From: a virus
IMG/VR virus record: IMGVR_UViG_3300041405_000148
Coordinates: 25,310-89,309 of that record
Reading direction: 5' to 3' (one strand)
Length of the DNA: 64,000 nucleotides
A program made the position numbers and the translations under genes. Every line of letters starts with the position of its first letter. Positions within the stretch are counted from its first letter, which is position 1. This document shows positions 19,398 to 60,907 of this stretch, one piece after another. The notes beneath the pieces are model-generated. The model was not told the DNA's origin, did not search any database, and worked only from the letters and a program-made list of their open reading frames with translations.

Positions 19398-20897
19398 CTA
19401 TTTAAAATAATAATCGTAAACTGACTTGTATGAAAGTGGATCATACGGATTAAACTTCAGCATGTCAACAGGAAATTCAATTCCATGCAGGTATCCAGGG
19501 TTTTCTTCAATGATCTTAAACAGCTCTAGGTCATGGTCACAAACAAAGTCAACCCCGTTTAGTCTTGAGATAATCAGGTCTGCTAAGAAAACCTGCATCA
19601 TATCTTGAATTTTTCCATTTGCAAAAGAATAATGTTGATCGAACTCCCAAGTTGGGACTACTTTTAAGCTAGTTGGAGCAACTTCCTCAGAACTTTCAAC
19701 AACCAGATCCTCAAAACACGTAACATGCCTTGAACTTCTTCCTTTGTTCAGACCTAACGTTGAGACTCTTTTCCCATCTTTCTTTATTGAGTACACAAGG
19801 TATTCACCCTGAGCAACATTACCTGCATAGCTGCCTACACAATGGCGCATCTCAACACCCTCTTGGTGGATCGCATACCGAGAGTCTAACAACTCAATTT
19901 CGTAACTGCCAACTTTGAGATATTTATCCTCAATAGAGTCAAGACATTTGATAGGTTCTGGTGAATACATTTGTTCATTTATCTTCTGTGTAAACAAATC
20001 ATGCACCTTTTCAAAACTGTCAATGTCATATTTCCAAATGTTAAACTTAACTCCCAGTTGGTCTGCCATACGTTTTGTATCGATGATTTTTGTCATCTTG
20101 TTCCTTGCTATACGAATAACAGCACTAGTAACATGACACATCGGGACGGATGAAATTATATTTTTATTAACAAAATCATAACCATAATCAGATTTCCAAT
20201 ATTTCCTAAAATGCATAAAAAGTTTATTTGCAAGCAATGTGCTTGGAATTTTCTCTAATTCTAAAAGGATCTCTCTGAGTCCATCATCTAAACTAGATAA
20301 ACCTAAAGAAAAACAATCAGTATAATCATCCAAAGCTTTTACAAGCAAATTATTTCTATGGAAGCTGTTTTTGCACAACCTCTTCCAGAGAGACTTACCA
20401 AAGTTATCTCTTAACTCTTTTGGATTTTTCTTCATACAAAAAACCCAAGGAAGAATGTTTTTTAAATTGTCATTTAGTGTCTCACGAAGAAGAGGTTCAG
20501 TTTTAACTACATCCTGGAATCTTCCCGCTGAGACCATCCCTCCACGACCTCGTGCAAGGAGATCAACAAGGTCTAACCTTGGTTGGACTTTAGTATAAAA
20601 TTCAGCTGCATTCCAAAGCTTAAGAGCTTTTGAAGGAGTACAACCAAGGATCTCTGAACACTTCTGATAAAAATTTTTGTGATAAAGTTTACGATCAGCT
20701 TGCTCTTGAGCATACACATGAGCATCTCGAAACTGTTCTTTGCTTAGTACTCTTGATAAAAAATCATTCAGCAATGGTGACCCACCTCTAACTCTGTGCG
20801 GAAACCTGTTTTTCGTGAAGAACACAACATTGTCCGCACTTGAACTCATCTTACCAAAGCTAACCTTGCCTTCTTCTGAAACTCTTAGATTGATCAT
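19398..20897 (-). CDS. PcfJ-like protein
   Basis: 499 residues. The C-terminal half contains the PcfJ-domain signature EGVEMRHCVGSYAGNVAQGE, then YLVYSIKKDGKRVSTLGLNK. The domain occurs in conjugative elements and phages but its biochemistry is unclear. The N-terminal half is helical and basic without recognised motifs. It is the first gene of the leftward run PcfJ-Prs-NAMPT and has a promoter at 20937-20965, so it may be an early gene. GGAGAAAAA precedes the ATG. Confidence 0.75.
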   Translation of the reverse strand: MINLRVSEEGKVSFGKMSSSADNVVFFTKNRFPHRVRGGSPLLNDFLSRVLSKEQFRDAHVYAQEQADRKLYHKNFYQKCSEILGCTPSKALKLWNAAEFYTKVQPRLDLVDLLARGRGGMVSAGRFQDVVKTEPLLRETLNDNLKNILPWVFCMKKNPKELRDNFGKSLWKRLCKNSFHRNNLLVKALDDYTDCFSLGLSSLDDGLREILLELEKIPSTLLANKLFMHFRKYWKSDYGYDFVNKNIISSVPMCHVTSAVIRIARNKMTKIIDTKRMADQLGVKFNIWKYDIDSFEKVHDLFTQKINEQMYSPEPIKCLDSIEDKYLKVGSYEIELLDSRYAIHQEGVEMRHCVGSYAGNVAQGEYLVYSIKKDGKRVSTLGLNKGRSSRHVTCFEDLVVESSEEVAPTSLKVVPTWEFDQHYSFANGKIQDMMQVFLADLIISRLNGVDFVCDHDLELFKIIEENPGYLHGIEFPVDMLKFNPYDPLSYKSVYDYYFK

Positions 20898-20936
20898 TTT
20901 TTCTCCTATGTAATTTAATTCTACTTAACCTAAAAT

Positions 20937-20965
20937 ATACTACCAAACCACCTACACCTTGTCTA
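20937..20965 (-). promoter_or_regulatory. Promoter for the PcfJ-Prs-NAMPT run
   Basis: Minus strand TAGACA and TAGTAT with a 17-base spacer, 40 bases before the start codon. Confidence 0.7.
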
Positions 20966-21000
20966 GAACCTGGCACATTGAAATTTACAACAAAAAAGAC

Positions 21001-21028
21001 TTGACAAAATAAATTTTTGTGTTATTTT
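21001..21028 (+). promoter_or_regulatory. Rightward promoter of the control region
   Basis: Plus strand TTGACA and TATTTT with a 16-base spacer; transcription would start near 21035, just before the hairpin RNA. Confidence 0.6.
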
Positions 21029-21035
21029 AAAGATC

Positions 21036-21092
21036 TTTATAGAACATGAACGGAGGTCGAAGACCGGAGTGAATGTTCTATTTCTTTTTGTT
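21036..21092 (+). ncRNA. Short hairpin RNA with paired GGA motifs and a T-rich end
   Basis: ATAGAACAT (21039-21047) pairs with ATGTTCTAT (21073-21081); inside, GGTC-GAA-GACC forms a second stem. Two CGGAG motifs (21051 and 21065) lie on either side of the inner stem, the arrangement of CsrA/RsmA-binding sponge RNAs. T-rich sequence follows (TTTCTTTTTGTTTTT), so this could be a ~55-nt terminated RNA or an attenuator ahead of the rightward genes. Confidence 0.5.
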
Positions 21093-21252
21093 TTTATTCT
21101 TTTTGGTTTTGTTTTTTATTAAGTTATTTAATAAATTATTATAAAACGTAGTGACTAATAATTTATATGTGTTTGTTTTTAAAAATTTATATACTAGATA
21201 TAACATAGATCTCTATAGTAAAAACCTTAGGTTAAGTGTTCTCGATCTAGAG
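21093..21252. other. Very AT-rich non-coding control region
   Basis: No gene seen. Runs of A and T, including AATTTATATACTAGATATAA, between the hairpin RNA and the small leftward gene. A site for DNA opening or regulator binding is possible; no iterons or clear origin motifs were seen. Confidence 0.4.
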
Positions 21253-23142: not shown

Positions 23143-23919
23143 ATGAAAATTAAGATAGGACAAAATTTTGAATCAAAACAAGGGGATTCTTTTACAGTTA
23201 TTTCTAAATGCCGTGAAATTTACGGTAACAAACTTGAAACTATTTATTACGTAAAATTTAACCATGAAAACACACCAAAAAATTTTCTAGTTAGGACAAT
23301 TGGGTCTTCCATACTTAAAGGTATTGTTGAAAATCCATATTACCCCAGTTTTCATGGCGTGGCTTTCAAAGGTGACACGAAAACCTCTTGCATTAGAAGT
23401 CAAGCGGGAAAGGTTTGGTGTCAAATGATAGAAAGATGCTTTAACATGAAGGTAAAGGAAAAGAATCCCACTTACAGGGAAAGTTTATGTTGTAGTGAAT
23501 GGTTAAACTTTAGTTTATTTGAGCAATGGTACAACTCTAAAAATGTGCCAGAAGGTTACAAAATTTCTTTGGACAAAGATGCAAAAATAAAGGGTAACAA
23601 AACCTATTCACCTGAGACATGTTGTTTGGTTCCTAGATATTTTAATTCACTTTTTACGAAATCTGATGCGTCTAGAGGTAGATTTATGATAGGCGTAAGT
23701 TATCATAAAAGATTGAATAAATTCAAATCTAGTGTTAGCTATCTTAACAAAAGTAAACATTTAGGCTACTTCAATACTGAAAGGGAAGCTTTTTTAGTGT
23801 ATAAATTTGAGAAGGAAAAGATCATTAAAGAAGAGGCCGATAAGATATTTAAGCTTGGTTTTATCTCTAAATCAGAGTATGAGCAAATACTTACTTATGA
23901 GGTTAATGAGTATGATTAA
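23143..23919 (+). CDS. AP2/HNH-type homing endonuclease-like protein
   Basis: 258 residues. The N-terminal ~60 residues form a small beta domain. The middle (AGKVWCQMIERCFN, LCCSEWLNFSLFEQWY, SLDKDAKIKGNKTYSPETCC) matches phage HNH-like nucleases, and the C-terminal FMIGVSYHKRLNKFKSSVSY plus KHLGYFNTEREAFLVYKFEK is an AP2 DNA-binding domain. Such free-standing genes move between phage genomes. Codon use is more A-rich than its neighbours, supporting transfer. No split gene or intron was seen next to it. Confidence 0.75.
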   Translation: MKIKIGQNFESKQGDSFTVISKCREIYGNKLETIYYVKFNHENTPKNFLVRTIGSSILKGIVENPYYPSFHGVAFKGDTKTSCIRSQAGKVWCQMIERCFNMKVKEKNPTYRESLCCSEWLNFSLFEQWYNSKNVPEGYKISLDKDAKIKGNKTYSPETCCLVPRYFNSLFTKSDASRGRFMIGVSYHKRLNKFKSSVSYLNKSKHLGYFNTEREAFLVYKFEKEKIIKEEADKIFKLGFISKSEYEQILTYEVNEYD

Positions 23920-57751: not shown

Positions 57752-57847
57752 GTGGAACAAAAATATGTTAGTTATACAAATAACTGCACTAAAAGCGAAG
57801 AAGTTCAAGTTTGGCCTACTAAGGAGGAAAAGAATGAAAACTGTTGA
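57752..57847 (+). CDS. 31-residue peptide, partial duplicate of the preceding gene's end
   Basis: GTG start at 57752 behind AAAGGAG. It reads VEQKYVSYTNNCTKSEEVQV-WPTKEEK, parallel to NEANSCIKSKEIEVWPKKEK at the end of 57501-57749; the DNA is also similar (TCTGGCCTAAAAAGGAG and TTTGGCCTACTAAGGAG). Ends in NENC, overlapping the next start. A tandem partial duplication. Confidence 0.45.
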   Translation: MEQKYVSYTNNCTKSEEVQVWPTKEEKNENC

Positions 57848-57998
57848 AGACATGATTAAAGATAAGATTGAAGAAGTGCTTGCACTGATGGCAGCAAATG
57901 GTGACGAGTGCAGTTATGGTGGTACAACGTACCAGTTAGATGATGGTCAGGAAGTTAAGATCAGTCGTGAATGGTATTCTAGTTCTTATAATTGCTAA
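57834..57998 (+). CDS. Tail-motif protein 1 (W-x-SSS-x-x-C family)
   Basis: 54 residues from ATG at 57834 behind AAGGAGGAAAAG. N-terminal acidic helix (VEDMIKDKIEEVLALMAANG), then a glycine/tyrosine hairpin (ECSYGGTTYQLDDGQE) and C-terminal EWYSSSYNC. The C-terminal motif is shared with four other genes up to 59663. Confidence 0.65.
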   Translation: MKTVEDMIKDKIEEVLALMAANGDECSYGGTTYQLDDGQEVKISREWYSSSYNC

Positions 57999-58007
57999 GG
58001 GGTAAAA

Positions 58008-58472
58008 ATGGATTATAAATTAGGTGATAAGAAAGTCCACCCTTATGGTGGTGAAAAAGAGGGTTACACCATCGTCGTTGCTGTCTTTAATAAGGAGACG
58101 GAAGAGTATGACCTACTGGAAAGTTTTGAAGATCTTGAAGACTTAAAAGAGTTCATTGAAGCAGAGGAACCAAGTGAAGATATTCTGTTTTTTGCTGTGG
58201 AAGATGGTTGGGGTGAGTATTTAAGTAGAGACGAGATTGAAGAAACAATTAGTGATAGTGGTCGTACTGTTCTTTGGTCTGAATATATCACTGAAGAGCA
58301 AATTAATAAACGCAAAGAAGTTAGTCGAAAAATTGTTGAGCTGTTAGAAGAAAATAACATCAACACTTCTGATCTTATTGTCAGCGATGGATGTGTTTAT
58401 CAGGGTTATGGAGAGTGTGCTAACTACATCCAAGCTACATATGCTTGGTGTTCAAGTTCAATGTCTTGTTAA
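58008..58472 (+). CDS. Tail-motif protein 2
   Basis: 154 residues, acidic. A beta-rich first half (EGYTIVVAVFNKETEEYDLL), a helical middle (NKRKEVSRKIVELLEENNIN), a G/Y/C segment (SDGCVYQGYGECANYI) and the end AWCSSSMSC. AAGGGGTAAAA precedes the ATG. Function unknown. Confidence 0.65.
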   Translation: MDYKLGDKKVHPYGGEKEGYTIVVAVFNKETEEYDLLESFEDLEDLKEFIEAEEPSEDILFFAVEDGWGEYLSRDEIEETISDSGRTVLWSEYITEEQINKRKEVSRKIVELLEENNINTSDLIVSDGCVYQGYGECANYIQATYAWCSSSMSC

Positions 58473-58481
58473 GGAGGTATA

Positions 58482-58916
58482 ATGTACCAAAACACAGAAA
58501 ACCTAGAGCTGGGTAAAGATTATTACGATATTAATACAGGTGAATATAAATTCACTTACATCTCTGATGGTTGTGATGAAATTGAGGTTGAAGGTATTCC
58601 AAAAAGTTTTGTTAAGGCTTATGGTACAACCTCCTATGATGTAGAAGTTCAGGCTTATGTCAAAGGCACTAATGAACTCTTATCTGAGTCTGAAGTTTGT
58701 GACATTTGTTATGAAGATATTATGGTTACAAAAGAACGCCTTGAAGAATTAGAGGAAGCTAAAATTAAGATTCAAGCAATTATTGATGAAGCTAATTTAA
58801 GTGAACCTTTTATCTTTGAAGGTGGACAGCTTTGGGTTGGGAAAGAGCATGTGTTGTCAACGCATATTAATGCTGGATATGATCATGGCTGGATTTCAAG
58901 TTCTATTTGTTGGTAA
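58482..58916 (+). CDS. Tail-motif protein 3
   Basis: 144 residues: DYYDINTGEYKFTYISDGCD, helix KERLEELEEAKIKIQAIIDE, then FEGGQLWVGKEHVLSTHINA and the end GWISSSICW, the only copy with one residue after the Cys. AAGGAGGTATA precedes the ATG. Confidence 0.65.
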   Translation: MYQNTENLELGKDYYDINTGEYKFTYISDGCDEIEVEGIPKSFVKAYGTTSYDVEVQAYVKGTNELLSESEVCDICYEDIMVTKERLEELEEAKIKIQAIIDEANLSEPFIFEGGQLWVGKEHVLSTHINAGYDHGWISSSICW

Positions 58917-58925
58917 GGAGAAGAG

Positions 58926-59192
58926 ATGTCAAAAGAAAACAAAGGTATTGAATTCAGTTTAGTAGAATCTTGGGATGGTTGGGATGAACAAGACATTGGA
59001 GATTTCTACTTTTACAACGTAAAGTTGCGTGAAGATGTTTTTGGTTCAGATTTCATTGAGAAATACAAAGAGCATAAATTAGATCTGTCACTGTGGACAC
59101 AATCGTCTGTTGTTGAGATTTACATAGCAGAAGATGAAACAGGTGAACCTATCTTTAAGCAAAAAATTAAAGTTGTTTTTGAGGAGGAATAA
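58926..59192 (+). CDS. Acidic protein between tail-motif genes
   Basis: 88 residues without the C-terminal motif: EFSLVESWDGWDEQDIGDFY, then VVEIYIAEDETGEPIFKQKI. It may interact with its neighbours. AAGGAGAAGAG precedes the ATG; its stop overlaps the next start by one base. Confidence 0.6.
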   Translation: MSKENKGIEFSLVESWDGWDEQDIGDFYFYNVKLREDVFGSDFIEKYKEHKLDLSLWTQSSVVEIYIAEDETGEPIFKQKIKVVFEEE

Positions 59193-59455
59193 TGACTGAT
59201 CTAAATTATAATAAACTGATCCAAGATAAGGTGGCTGAAGGTGAAGCTCTCGTTCAAAAGATTAAGGACCAGATCGAGGAGCTGGCAGAAGTTGGTCGGA
59301 CAACAGCTTATTGGGGTGAGTATGGCTCAGGTGAGACTTACTACTCAGTAGGTTATGTGCAAGATAACATTGATTCTGATGGTGAAGTGGATTACCTTAA
59401 CTTTGAAGATGAGTATGAACCTGGTAGCTGGATTTCCTCCAGCAGTATTTGTTAA
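59192..59455 (+). CDS. Tail-motif protein 4
   Basis: 87 residues: helix EGEALVQKIKDQIEELAEVG, then a Y/G stretch (YWGEYGSGETYYSVGYV), acidic linker and the end SWISSSSIC. GAGGAGGAATA precedes the ATG. Confidence 0.65.
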   Translation: MTDLNYNKLIQDKVAEGEALVQKIKDQIEELAEVGRTTAYWGEYGSGETYYSVGYVQDNIDSDGEVDYLNFEDEYEPGSWISSSSIC

Positions 59456-59468
59456 TAAGGAGAAAATA

Positions 59469-59663
59469 ATGTCTGAATTTAAAACTGTTCGTGAAGCGGT
59501 AGCTGCCGCAGAGTTTGCACTAGAGCAAGCGGAGCGCCTAGCTCTTGAATCTGGTGAAGGTTTTCGGTTCTCACCTGAATATGGAATGGGTGGATATTTT
59601 GATCCTAAGGAGGAAAATGAATACACAGGAAGTAACTGGTTCCCTTCCTCACTGGGTTGCTAA
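59469..59663 (+). CDS. Tail-motif protein 5
   Basis: 64 residues from ATG at 59469 behind AAGGAGAAAATA. Helix REAVAAAEFALEQAERLALE, then GFRFSPEYGMGGYFDPKEEN and the end NWFPSSLGC. It shows the family plan most simply: helix, aromatic/glycine hairpin, W-x-P/S-S-S-x-x-C. Confidence 0.65.
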   Translation: MSEFKTVREAVAAAEFALEQAERLALESGEGFRFSPEYGMGGYFDPKEENEYTGSNWFPSSLGC

Positions 59664-59673
59664 GGAGGTAGAG

Positions 59674-59892
59674 ATGACTATATTATCAGAATTTTCAATT
59701 GAAGAGCTTGAAGAAGAGATTACTAGACGCAAAAGTATGGAAGCCAATGGCTACTTAAACCGTGTCCAAGAGGCTGTTAATGACCTCGAAGAGTACTCAA
59801 GAAGAAACAGTTTAATGGTATATTTTGATTTTGGGGTGAACGGTTTGCCACTATCTTTTGATCCACATATGAATGAGTGGGAATGTGATTAA
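59674..59892 (+). CDS. Small acidic hypothetical protein
   Basis: 72 residues from ATG at 59674 behind AAGGAGGTAGAG. FSIEELEEEITRRKSMEANG, helical, then MVYFDFGVNGLPLSFDPHMN. No Cys tail. Unknown function. Confidence 0.6.
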   Translation: MTILSEFSIEELEEEITRRKSMEANGYLNRVQEAVNDLEEYSRRNSLMVYFDFGVNGLPLSFDPHMNEWECD

Positions 59893-59935: not shown

Positions 59936-59992
59936 ATGTTGACTTTTCTACTGATCATCGTTATCCTAGTCTTACTGTCTCGAATCATCTGA
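59936..59992 (+). CDS. 18-residue hydrophobic membrane peptide
   Basis: MLTFLLIIVILVLLSRII, a single membrane span, with a good AGGAGAAAATT site before the ATG. Such tiny peptides can act as membrane modulators or toxins; no function can be assigned. Confidence 0.55.
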   Translation: MLTFLLIIVILVLLSRII

Positions 59993-60016: not shown

Positions 60017-60907
60017 TTGTTAATCATCGGATCTAAAGCTTTAGTACACCACCTCAAGGACATTGGTCGTGAACCAAAGGACACTGACTTTATTTGCACT
60101 GAGGCTGAATGGTTGGATTGTGTTGAAACACACACGTTCAGTGCAAACCTCATTGAACGTAATGGAAACAAAGGACATATCTTTTCTGGAGATCGAGTCC
60201 ATTTTGAGTTTGATATTGCCCAAGAAGGTGACAGTAATGATTTGATCCTCCAACTTACAGAGGGAAAACTTTTTGCACCATTGGACGTACTCTTACTACT
60301 TAAGTTATCTCATCGATATAAGAAAAACAGTCCACATTTTATGAAGACAATGTGGGATATTCATAAATTACGAGCACACGATGCCAAGATCACACCAGAG
60401 CTTGAGCCTATTCTGAAACTGAGGGAAAAGGAGACTTACACTTATGCACATCCAAAATTGAATGTAACTAAGAAAGAGTTCTTCAATGGTGATGATGTAC
60501 CTTATGTTTATGACCACGATTCAATACATGAGGTTGTTGCTTTCTTAGATCGCCCTGCTTATACTTACTACATGACAGATGGAGAGCAGGTTAAAGCATC
60601 TATGGACAAGTTCTTTGAGCAAGACCGTTATATCCAGTTGTTGGGTGTTCTCGAAGAGTCTATGGTACTGGCTGCGGAGCGTAGTCAGATCCCAAATAAT
60701 TTTGAACTTTCGCCACGGCTATCTTTTAACATTGCACTGGAAAAGGTATGTACATCCATTACATCAGGCCGCTTTAGGGAATTTGCATGGGAGTCGTACT
60801 ACATTGTACAGCAGATGTATGACAAACTTGGTGGTGATGCTTGGGTCGAAAAAGTGAAACAAGCAATCGCAGAAAATAAACTTCGTCCTTTTGAAGGAGA
60901 GCACTAA
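60017..60907 (+). CDS. Nucleotidyltransferase-like protein
   Basis: 296 residues, TTG start behind AGGAGGAATCAAAA. The N-terminus MLIIGSKALVHHLKDIG-REPKDTDF has GS...DxDF, the active-site pattern of MNT-type nucleotidyltransferases; FDIAQEGDSNDLILQL could supply the third acidic residue. The rest is helical (LDVLLLLKLSHRYKKNS). It may add a nucleotide to a protein or RNA. Related proteins occur in other large phages. Confidence 0.62.
   Translation: MLIIGSKALVHHLKDIGREPKDTDFICTEAEWLDCVETHTFSANLIERNGNKGHIFSGDRVHFEFDIAQEGDSNDLILQLTEGKLFAPLDVLLLLKLSHRYKKNSPHFMKTMWDIHKLRAHDAKITPELEPILKLREKETYTYAHPKLNVTKKEFFNGDDVPYVYDHDSIHEVVAFLDRPAYTYYMTDGEQVKASMDKFFEQDRYIQLLGVLEESMVLAAERSQIPNNFELSPRLSFNIALEKVCTSITSGRFREFAWESYYIVQQMYDKLGGDAWVEKVKQAIAENKLRPFEGEH

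Follow-up and report, generated by a model that had tools for sequence, protein, structure and literature searches.

The early regions of large phages are rich in small proteins of unknown function, and the locus described here raises the question of why several neighbouring genes for such proteins should end in nearly the same residues. In the window, by which we mean the whole 64,000-nucleotide stretch of phage DNA that was analysed, five plus-strand ORFs between 57834 and 59663 carry a C-terminal W-x-[SP]-S-S-x-x-C, one of them closing in -CW. A sequence-only reading had quoted these five tails, and all are present in frame as quoted. Tail protein 1 (57834..57998, 54 aa, from the ORF and its sequence) ends in EWYSSSYNC, with tail codons at 57972-57995, tail protein 2 (58008..58472, 154 aa) in AWCSSSMSC (58446-58469), tail protein 3 (58482..58916, 144 aa) in GWISSSICW (58890-58913), where the Cys is penultimate, tail protein 4 (59192..59455, 87 aa, type A) in SWISSSSIC (59429-59452), and tail protein 5 (59469..59663, 64 aa, type B) in NWFPSSLGC (59637-59660). 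The first coordinate of each pair is the likely start, with a Shine-Dalgarno sequence, and the second is the stop. The sixth gene of the row (58926..59192, plus strand, 88 aa, phrog_4551/4991) is embedded in the cluster, has no tail and is not counted as a tail protein; relatives of it occur in ten further loci within this phage group, frequently next to tail genes.

Two smaller features follow the cluster. A gene of 72 aa (59674..59892, plus strand) ends in ...NEWECD without the canonical tail and stands in the alignment of type C tail proteins by position only; it is possibly a decayed member of the family. Between the tail cluster and the next large gene, a micro-ORF at 59936-59992 encodes 18 hydrophobic residues (MLTFLLIIVILVLLSRII) and has its own Shine-Dalgarno sequence. 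Scans of the region for promoters and terminators gave matches no more numerous than in shuffled sequence, and operon structure is for this reason read from gene spacing only.

Profile searches say little about what these proteins are. With Pfam and PHROGs, the five tail proteins matched nothing other than phrog_899, a profile that has no assigned function, covers only some tail proteins and ends exactly at the tail. The products of 59192-59455 (E 6e-8) and 59469-59663 (E 5e-8) match its C-terminal end, both to position 221 of 221, 58482 gives a weak partial match, and 57834 and 58008 give none. An ORF of 258 aa at 23143-23919 of the window matches the N-terminal half of the same profile (E 4e-6), and phrog_899 may combine parts that are unrelated. 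The proposal that each protein consists of an acidic helix, a glycine/aromatic hairpin and then the tail holds for types A and B (59192 and 59469), in which a helix and a YGxGG/YGSGxTYY segment precede the tail, and only loosely for 58008 and 58482, in which an extra, poorly conserved N-terminal region stands before the shared part. In tail protein 2 (58008..58472), for example, the N-terminal part has diverged and the last ~40 residues are strongly conserved.

The tail is a real C-terminal element, shared among these proteins and selected at the protein level. Of all 857 ORFs with 40 aa or more in the 153-kb phage record, the pattern W..S.{1,3}C.?$ matches only the five of the cluster, and a match by chance was ruled out by whole-genome ORF scans. 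For statistics on the motif, we used 139 tail proteins that are less than 60% identical in their last 40 residues. The position three residues after the Trp (W+3) is Ser in all 139, though the search pattern also allowed Thr, Ala and others, W+2 is small (mostly Ser, Ala, Pro, Thr, Asn or Gly), and W+4 is mostly Ser. The chain ends at W+7 in 100 proteins and at W+5 in 34, with two ending at W+6 and three at W+8. Some tail proteins have one more residue after the terminal Cys (-CW, -CF, -CN). Both codon boxes are in use for the W+3 Ser (90 TCN, 49 AGY), and selection must therefore act on the protein; a DNA-level cause, such as the Shine-Dalgarno sequence of the next gene, is ruled out by the same switching between TCN and AGY. 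In a 17-sequence alignment whose members share 19-40% identity with the first row, no residue is invariant apart from the start Met and the W, S, S and C of the tail.

The tail had been described as a terminal tag, and this stands insofar as it is a shared C-terminal element; it is not strictly terminal, since several relatives hold a second, internal copy of the form W-x-[SN]-S-x-C, in one class as DWLSSSCFGEGDDGF.... Internal copies matching W.[SGNPD]S..C number nine, against 0.1 expected from shuffles. Internal copies together with a preferred C-terminal position suit a short linear motif. Type C tail proteins (L012:20531-20752, L013:19755-19973 and L016:6977-7201) carry two W-x-[SN]-S-x-C motifs, the internal one reading DWxSSxCYGE and the terminal one W-x-x-S-x-C. 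At three further loci, the tails consist of repeated W-x-[SD]-S units (YYESSESYEDEWESSESSEC, SWWESSEEYWDDSGC) that look as if the motif had been multiplied (L144, ~80 bases upstream of the enzyme described below, L146, and L062:5102-5299).

The phage itself is related to Stephanstirmvirinae, with its best protein matches in Klebsiella phage KP2025, Citrobacter phage Tr1 and Phapecoctavirus, and the same gene block with the same tails is present in these relatives. The orthologue of tail protein 1 in KP2025 (L011:18177-18335), for example, has 52 aa and ends in WRSSSYDC. By the criterion set in the sequence-only reading, absence of the motif from homologues, or of clusters from other phages, would have refuted the idea of a family, and neither is what we found: orthologues and paralogues keep the tail, and clusters of 1-6 genes occur in Stephanstirmvirinae, T4-like phages and jumbo phages. 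Among T4-like phages, Moonvirus Merlin, Dhakavirus vB_EcoM_005 and WG01, and Karamvirus PS49 have 2-5 adjoining tail genes at unrelated sites, jumbo Erwinia phage Hallingskeid has two, and IMG/VR contigs add many further loci with 1-6 tail genes each. The hosts are diverse and include Escherichia, Acinetobacter, Aeromonas, Pseudomonas and Stenotrophomonas, among others. These loci were found by searching with close-family alignments; a search with protein 58482 or with a single enzyme sequence returned none or one. The record of Dhakavirus vB_EcoM_005 (L016:6259-8948, MK295203.1) labels its tail genes and enzyme as proteins of tail completion, major capsid and prohead scaffold, apparently mis-annotations carried over from elsewhere; its DUF7275 match also falls into two pieces.

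What accompanies the tails is one enzyme. The suggestion that a shared tail points to a common partner or a modification is of the right kind, and a Pol-beta-type nucleotidyltransferase recurs beside the tails; its gene lies just outside the stretch considered by the sequence-only reading, which did not mention it. The gene (60017..60907, plus strand, 296 aa) begins with TTG after AGGAGG, ~350 bp downstream of the tail cluster, and its product combines DUF7277 with DUF7275. The nucleotidyltransferase half has the motifs G5 S6, D22-x-D24 and E64, and the DUF7275 half, of 190 aa, has H99, H167-D168-x-x-H171, E213 E214, E221 R222, K243 and R254. Across 72 enzymes, G5, S6 and D24 are invariant, D22 is kept in 71, and the position of E64 is E or D in 69. 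An AlphaFold2 model built on a 71-sequence alignment reached pLDDT 94 and pTM 0.89 and was the one used, the model without an alignment having a pLDDT of 33. With this model, Foldseek against the PDB placed MenT1 on top (probability 1.00, E 7e-3), followed by a CCA-adding enzyme, a giant-virus poly(A) polymerase, LinB, ANT(2'')-Ia and LnuA, and the top ten matches are all Pol-beta nucleotidyltransferases. The predicted structure thus shows a Pol-beta nucleotidyltransferase fold with catalytic acidic residues.

Some Acinetobacter phage records already name the enzyme a "putative nucleotidyltransferase", so this identity is not new; the link with the tails is. A sequence profile search of the PDB with the enzyme gave chance matches only, and no solved structure resembles DUF7275. 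All 15 members searched match DUF7275/DUF7277, with no AbiEii (DUF1814) at E<=10 and no HD, GlnD or PF10127 match, and PADLOC found no significant match of either the enzyme or the tail proteins to a known anti-phage defence component. Among 50,697 annotated phage records, 715 contain a DUF7275-type protein. In BFVD, the enzyme model also matches predicted DUF7275 proteins of the protist giant viruses Sylvanvirus and Satyrvirus, a predicted reach beyond phages.

That the tail co-occurs with this enzyme and adjoins it in very diverse phages is evident from both directions of search. When ORFs around tail genes were grouped, one other family, the enzyme, was present in every type A/B locus. In 39 of the 44 loci fetched by their tails, the enzyme lies within 4 kb; it is elsewhere on the contig in four of the other five, and the fifth is a 29.7-kb fragment. 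Because the enzyme hypothesis arose from loci selected for tails, the converse test was run on 82 loci retrieved solely by similarity to the enzyme: in 72, tail ORFs lie on the same strand, nearly all 0.1-3 kb upstream, and in two they lie on the opposite strand. Many of these 82 are T4-like relatives, and clustering at <70% identity gives the same answer, with a tail gene in 43 of 47 clusters. The four exceptions are L069, whose tail gene is on the opposite strand at a distance of ~6 kb, L144 and L146, where degenerate W-x-S-S repeats directly precede the enzyme, and L110, with no tail. Even the last residue alone carries the signal: Cys ends 139 of 567 genes within 3 kb upstream of the enzyme and 22 of 1126 elsewhere (Fisher p = 1.7e-48), and with W at -5 or -7 as well, the counts are 131 of 567 against 6 of 1126.

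Whole genomes agree with this pattern. T4, RB49, rV5, Aeh1, FelixO1 and phiKZ have no DUF7275 and no tail ORF among ~5,900, and RB69, a laboratory phage of E. coli in standard use, has the DUF7275 enzyme with three adjacent tail genes, a fourth pattern match in a distant ORF of 271 aa being counted as background. Stenotrophomonas phage YB07 has its tail genes on the downstream side of the enzyme; gene order is therefore not fixed, and the linkage is kept.

From this observed linkage we infer a chemistry. There is, in our judgement, about an even chance that the tail is the recognition site of the DUF7277-DUF7275 enzyme and probably its nucleotide acceptor. One enzyme would serve the 1-6 small proteins of a phage, which are alike in little but the tail; most likely, it would bind the C-terminal end of each and transfer an NMP onto the protein. 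Since every tail has Ser at W+3 and the chain stops at a set distance from it, the tail is probably the acceptor or its immediate neighbour; this Ser would be the best candidate acceptor, with the terminal Cys or carboxylate fixing the register. The DUF7275 half (H99, H167-D168, H171) may remove or control the mark, in the manner of the second domain of GlnD acting on PII, a suggestion read from the motifs because no solved structure offers a likeness. The wider proposal, that a single Pol-beta enzyme with a dedicated second domain reads a short, degenerate C-terminal code (W-x-x-S with Cys at W+5 or W+7) on phage proteins that have no other relationship and nucleotidylates them, or host targets through them, we regard as evenly balanced, and such a mark might play a part in host takeover. 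Against a protein acceptor, MenT1, the best structural match though only at E 7e-3, modifies tRNA and not protein. Protein-modifying Pol-beta enzymes do exist: MntA uses its GSX10DXD motif to attach three AMPs to a HepT Tyr (PMC7641770).

Divergent forms of the enzyme indicate which residues might be involved. KVP40/ValKK3, Vibrio phage R16F, Pseudoalteromonas phage HM1, Gordonia phage Cucurbita and Streptomyces phage Blueeyedbeauty encode a divergent protein of 251-263 aa that keeps GS and D-x-D and lacks the E64 segment, the nucleotidyltransferase half being shortened. Tails are absent beside all of these short enzymes. They adjoin a different small protein, related via phrog_13591/18295/8206, the Gordonia one being phrog_16046 and the HM1 one recognised by eye. 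This neighbour reads G-E-G-E-Y-C-Y ... K-Y-F-K ... S-Y-Y-S-Y-x-G, and together with the short enzyme it looks like a parallel pair without the tail (KVP40 record 20093-21150; L240:3612-4669; L237:4995-6150; L236:4995-6085; L235:3839-4920; L238:4632-5772). R136, Y143, C245, S250 and R254 are among the residues conserved in all tail-partnered enzymes and absent from the short ones, and this set may read the tail; H99, H167, D168, H171, E213, E214, E221 and R222 are among those kept in both and may form another active site.

Gene neighbourhood alone cannot distinguish a substrate from an adaptor or an inhibitor, and other readings of the same linkage have to be weighed. The strongest rival, which we consider rather unlikely, is that the tail docks the small proteins on the enzyme and their N-terminal parts bind host or phage targets for it to nucleotidylate, as exchangeable adaptors would serve one ubiquitin ligase. 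A single enzyme alongside as many as six tail proteins in a phage would fit, as would N-terminal parts that vary far more than a tail strictly placed at the C-terminus, and R136, Y143, C245, S250 and R254 behave as a docking site should in being invariant only where tails are present. However, mere docking would not need an invariant W+3 Ser, and many tail proteins have only 50-70 aa, with little beyond helix and tail; nor do the N-terminal parts match any known binding domain in Pfam or PADLOC. We hold it improbable that enzyme and tail proteins form a toxin-antitoxin-like pair, in which the enzyme would modify RNA (tRNA ends, for example, as MenT does) and the tails of small inhibitors or regulators would plug its active site. 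Several proteins per enzyme argue against a simple antitoxin, up to six different inhibitors being odd, and lytic phages rarely need addiction modules, even though a small gene 5' of a nucleotidyltransferase gene is the classic arrangement and the closest fold is that of a tRNA-modifying toxin, MenT1. The apparent long helix at the start of the tail proteins recalls the MenA1 antitoxin, a small protein whose long helix blocks the active site; yet the C-terminus of MenA1 is dispensable (PMC10435456), and here it is the only conserved part.

More improbable still, the tail could be the final beta-strand of a small domain or a site to which some host protein binds, with the enzyme merely a frequent operon neighbour. 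Types A and B do share the helix and the YGxGG/YGSGxTYY segment besides the tail, so that conservation could be partly structural, but dissimilar tail proteins (L053:4612-5151, for example) are alike in the tail only, and the extra internal copies and exact end distances fit a linear motif better than a fold. The enzyme is also the constant neighbour of tails across very diverse hosts, and phages without it have no tails. Finally, the terminal Cys might hold a small molecule made with the help of the enzyme, as on a carrier or RiPP-like scaffold, comparable to the C-terminal Glu of LysW-type proteins; we consider this highly improbable. The tail proteins, small and acidic, with a conserved C-terminal tail that contains W and with a reactive last residue, do resemble the LysW/ArgW carriers, which end in EDWGE. 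In some of our proteins, though, the Cys is followed by another residue, and the loci hold no recurrent biosynthetic enzyme, protease or transporter besides the single nucleotidyltransferase. Over the 82 loci, only the nucleotidyltransferase and the tail genes recur, with no recurrent maturase, protease or exporter, and nothing points to the lipidation, disulphide capture, cyclisation or RiPP processing that had been suggested for the tail.

Nucleotidylation directed by the tail, the reading we prefer, would amount to a novel code of protein modification, in which each enzyme has several substrates, if the tail is the nucleotide acceptor; if it is a dock, phages would have a system of interchangeable adaptors. 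In either case, an eight-residue tail and an adjoining enzyme unite hundreds of small early-region phage proteins in one system, and DUF7277-DUF7275 and phrog_899 have both been without an assigned function so far. In the part of the literature covered, we found no description of the motif, of DUF7275 or DUF7277, or of phrog_899, and we know of no other case in which a single enzyme is paired with as many as six small proteins that have nothing but a C-terminal code in common.

Comparison with known systems shows which parts are familiar. GlnD, the PII uridylyltransferase/uridylyl-removing enzyme, whose second domain reverses the mark on PII, is a conceptual likeness, as it joins a nucleotidyltransferase domain to a second domain with a His/Asp motif and acts on small proteins; it differs in that the phage enzyme has no Pfam match to GlnD or HD and its candidate substrates are unrelated to PII. 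In phrog_899, the likeness is to the type A/B tail proteins themselves, which match its last ~75 columns up to the final residue. RlaP (PF10127) is an RNA-repair Pol-beta nucleotidyltransferase common in large phages (PMC7824862), but it is a separate gene elsewhere in the same phages (Merlin, Hallingskeid, RB69) and is present in T4, which has no DUF7275. MenAT/AbiE (DUF1814) offers the closest solved fold, MenT1, and a small protein partner, MenA1; the phage enzyme, in contrast, has no DUF1814/AbiEii Pfam match, and its partners are several, tailed and unlike MenA, which in the case of MenA1 needs no C-terminal tail (PMC10435456). In HEPN-MNT (HepT/MntA), as here, a Pol-beta nucleotidyltransferase with GS-x(n)-D-x-D is encoded beside a small protein, and MntA transfers AMPs to the Tyr of its partner (PMC7641770). 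That system differs in having one partner, an HEPN RNase with an internal RX4HXY, where the phage enzyme has 1-6 partners with a C-terminal W-x-x-S-x-x-C tail and an extra DUF7275 half; no tail protein has a Pfam match to HEPN, and no RX4-6HXY motif is found in the tails. In the proposed system, the layout is what we regard as new; its nucleotidyltransferase fold and the module of nucleotidyltransferase plus small protein were already known from HEPN-MNT and MenAT, and protein nucleotidylation, if proven, would put its chemistry close to that of HEPN-MNT.
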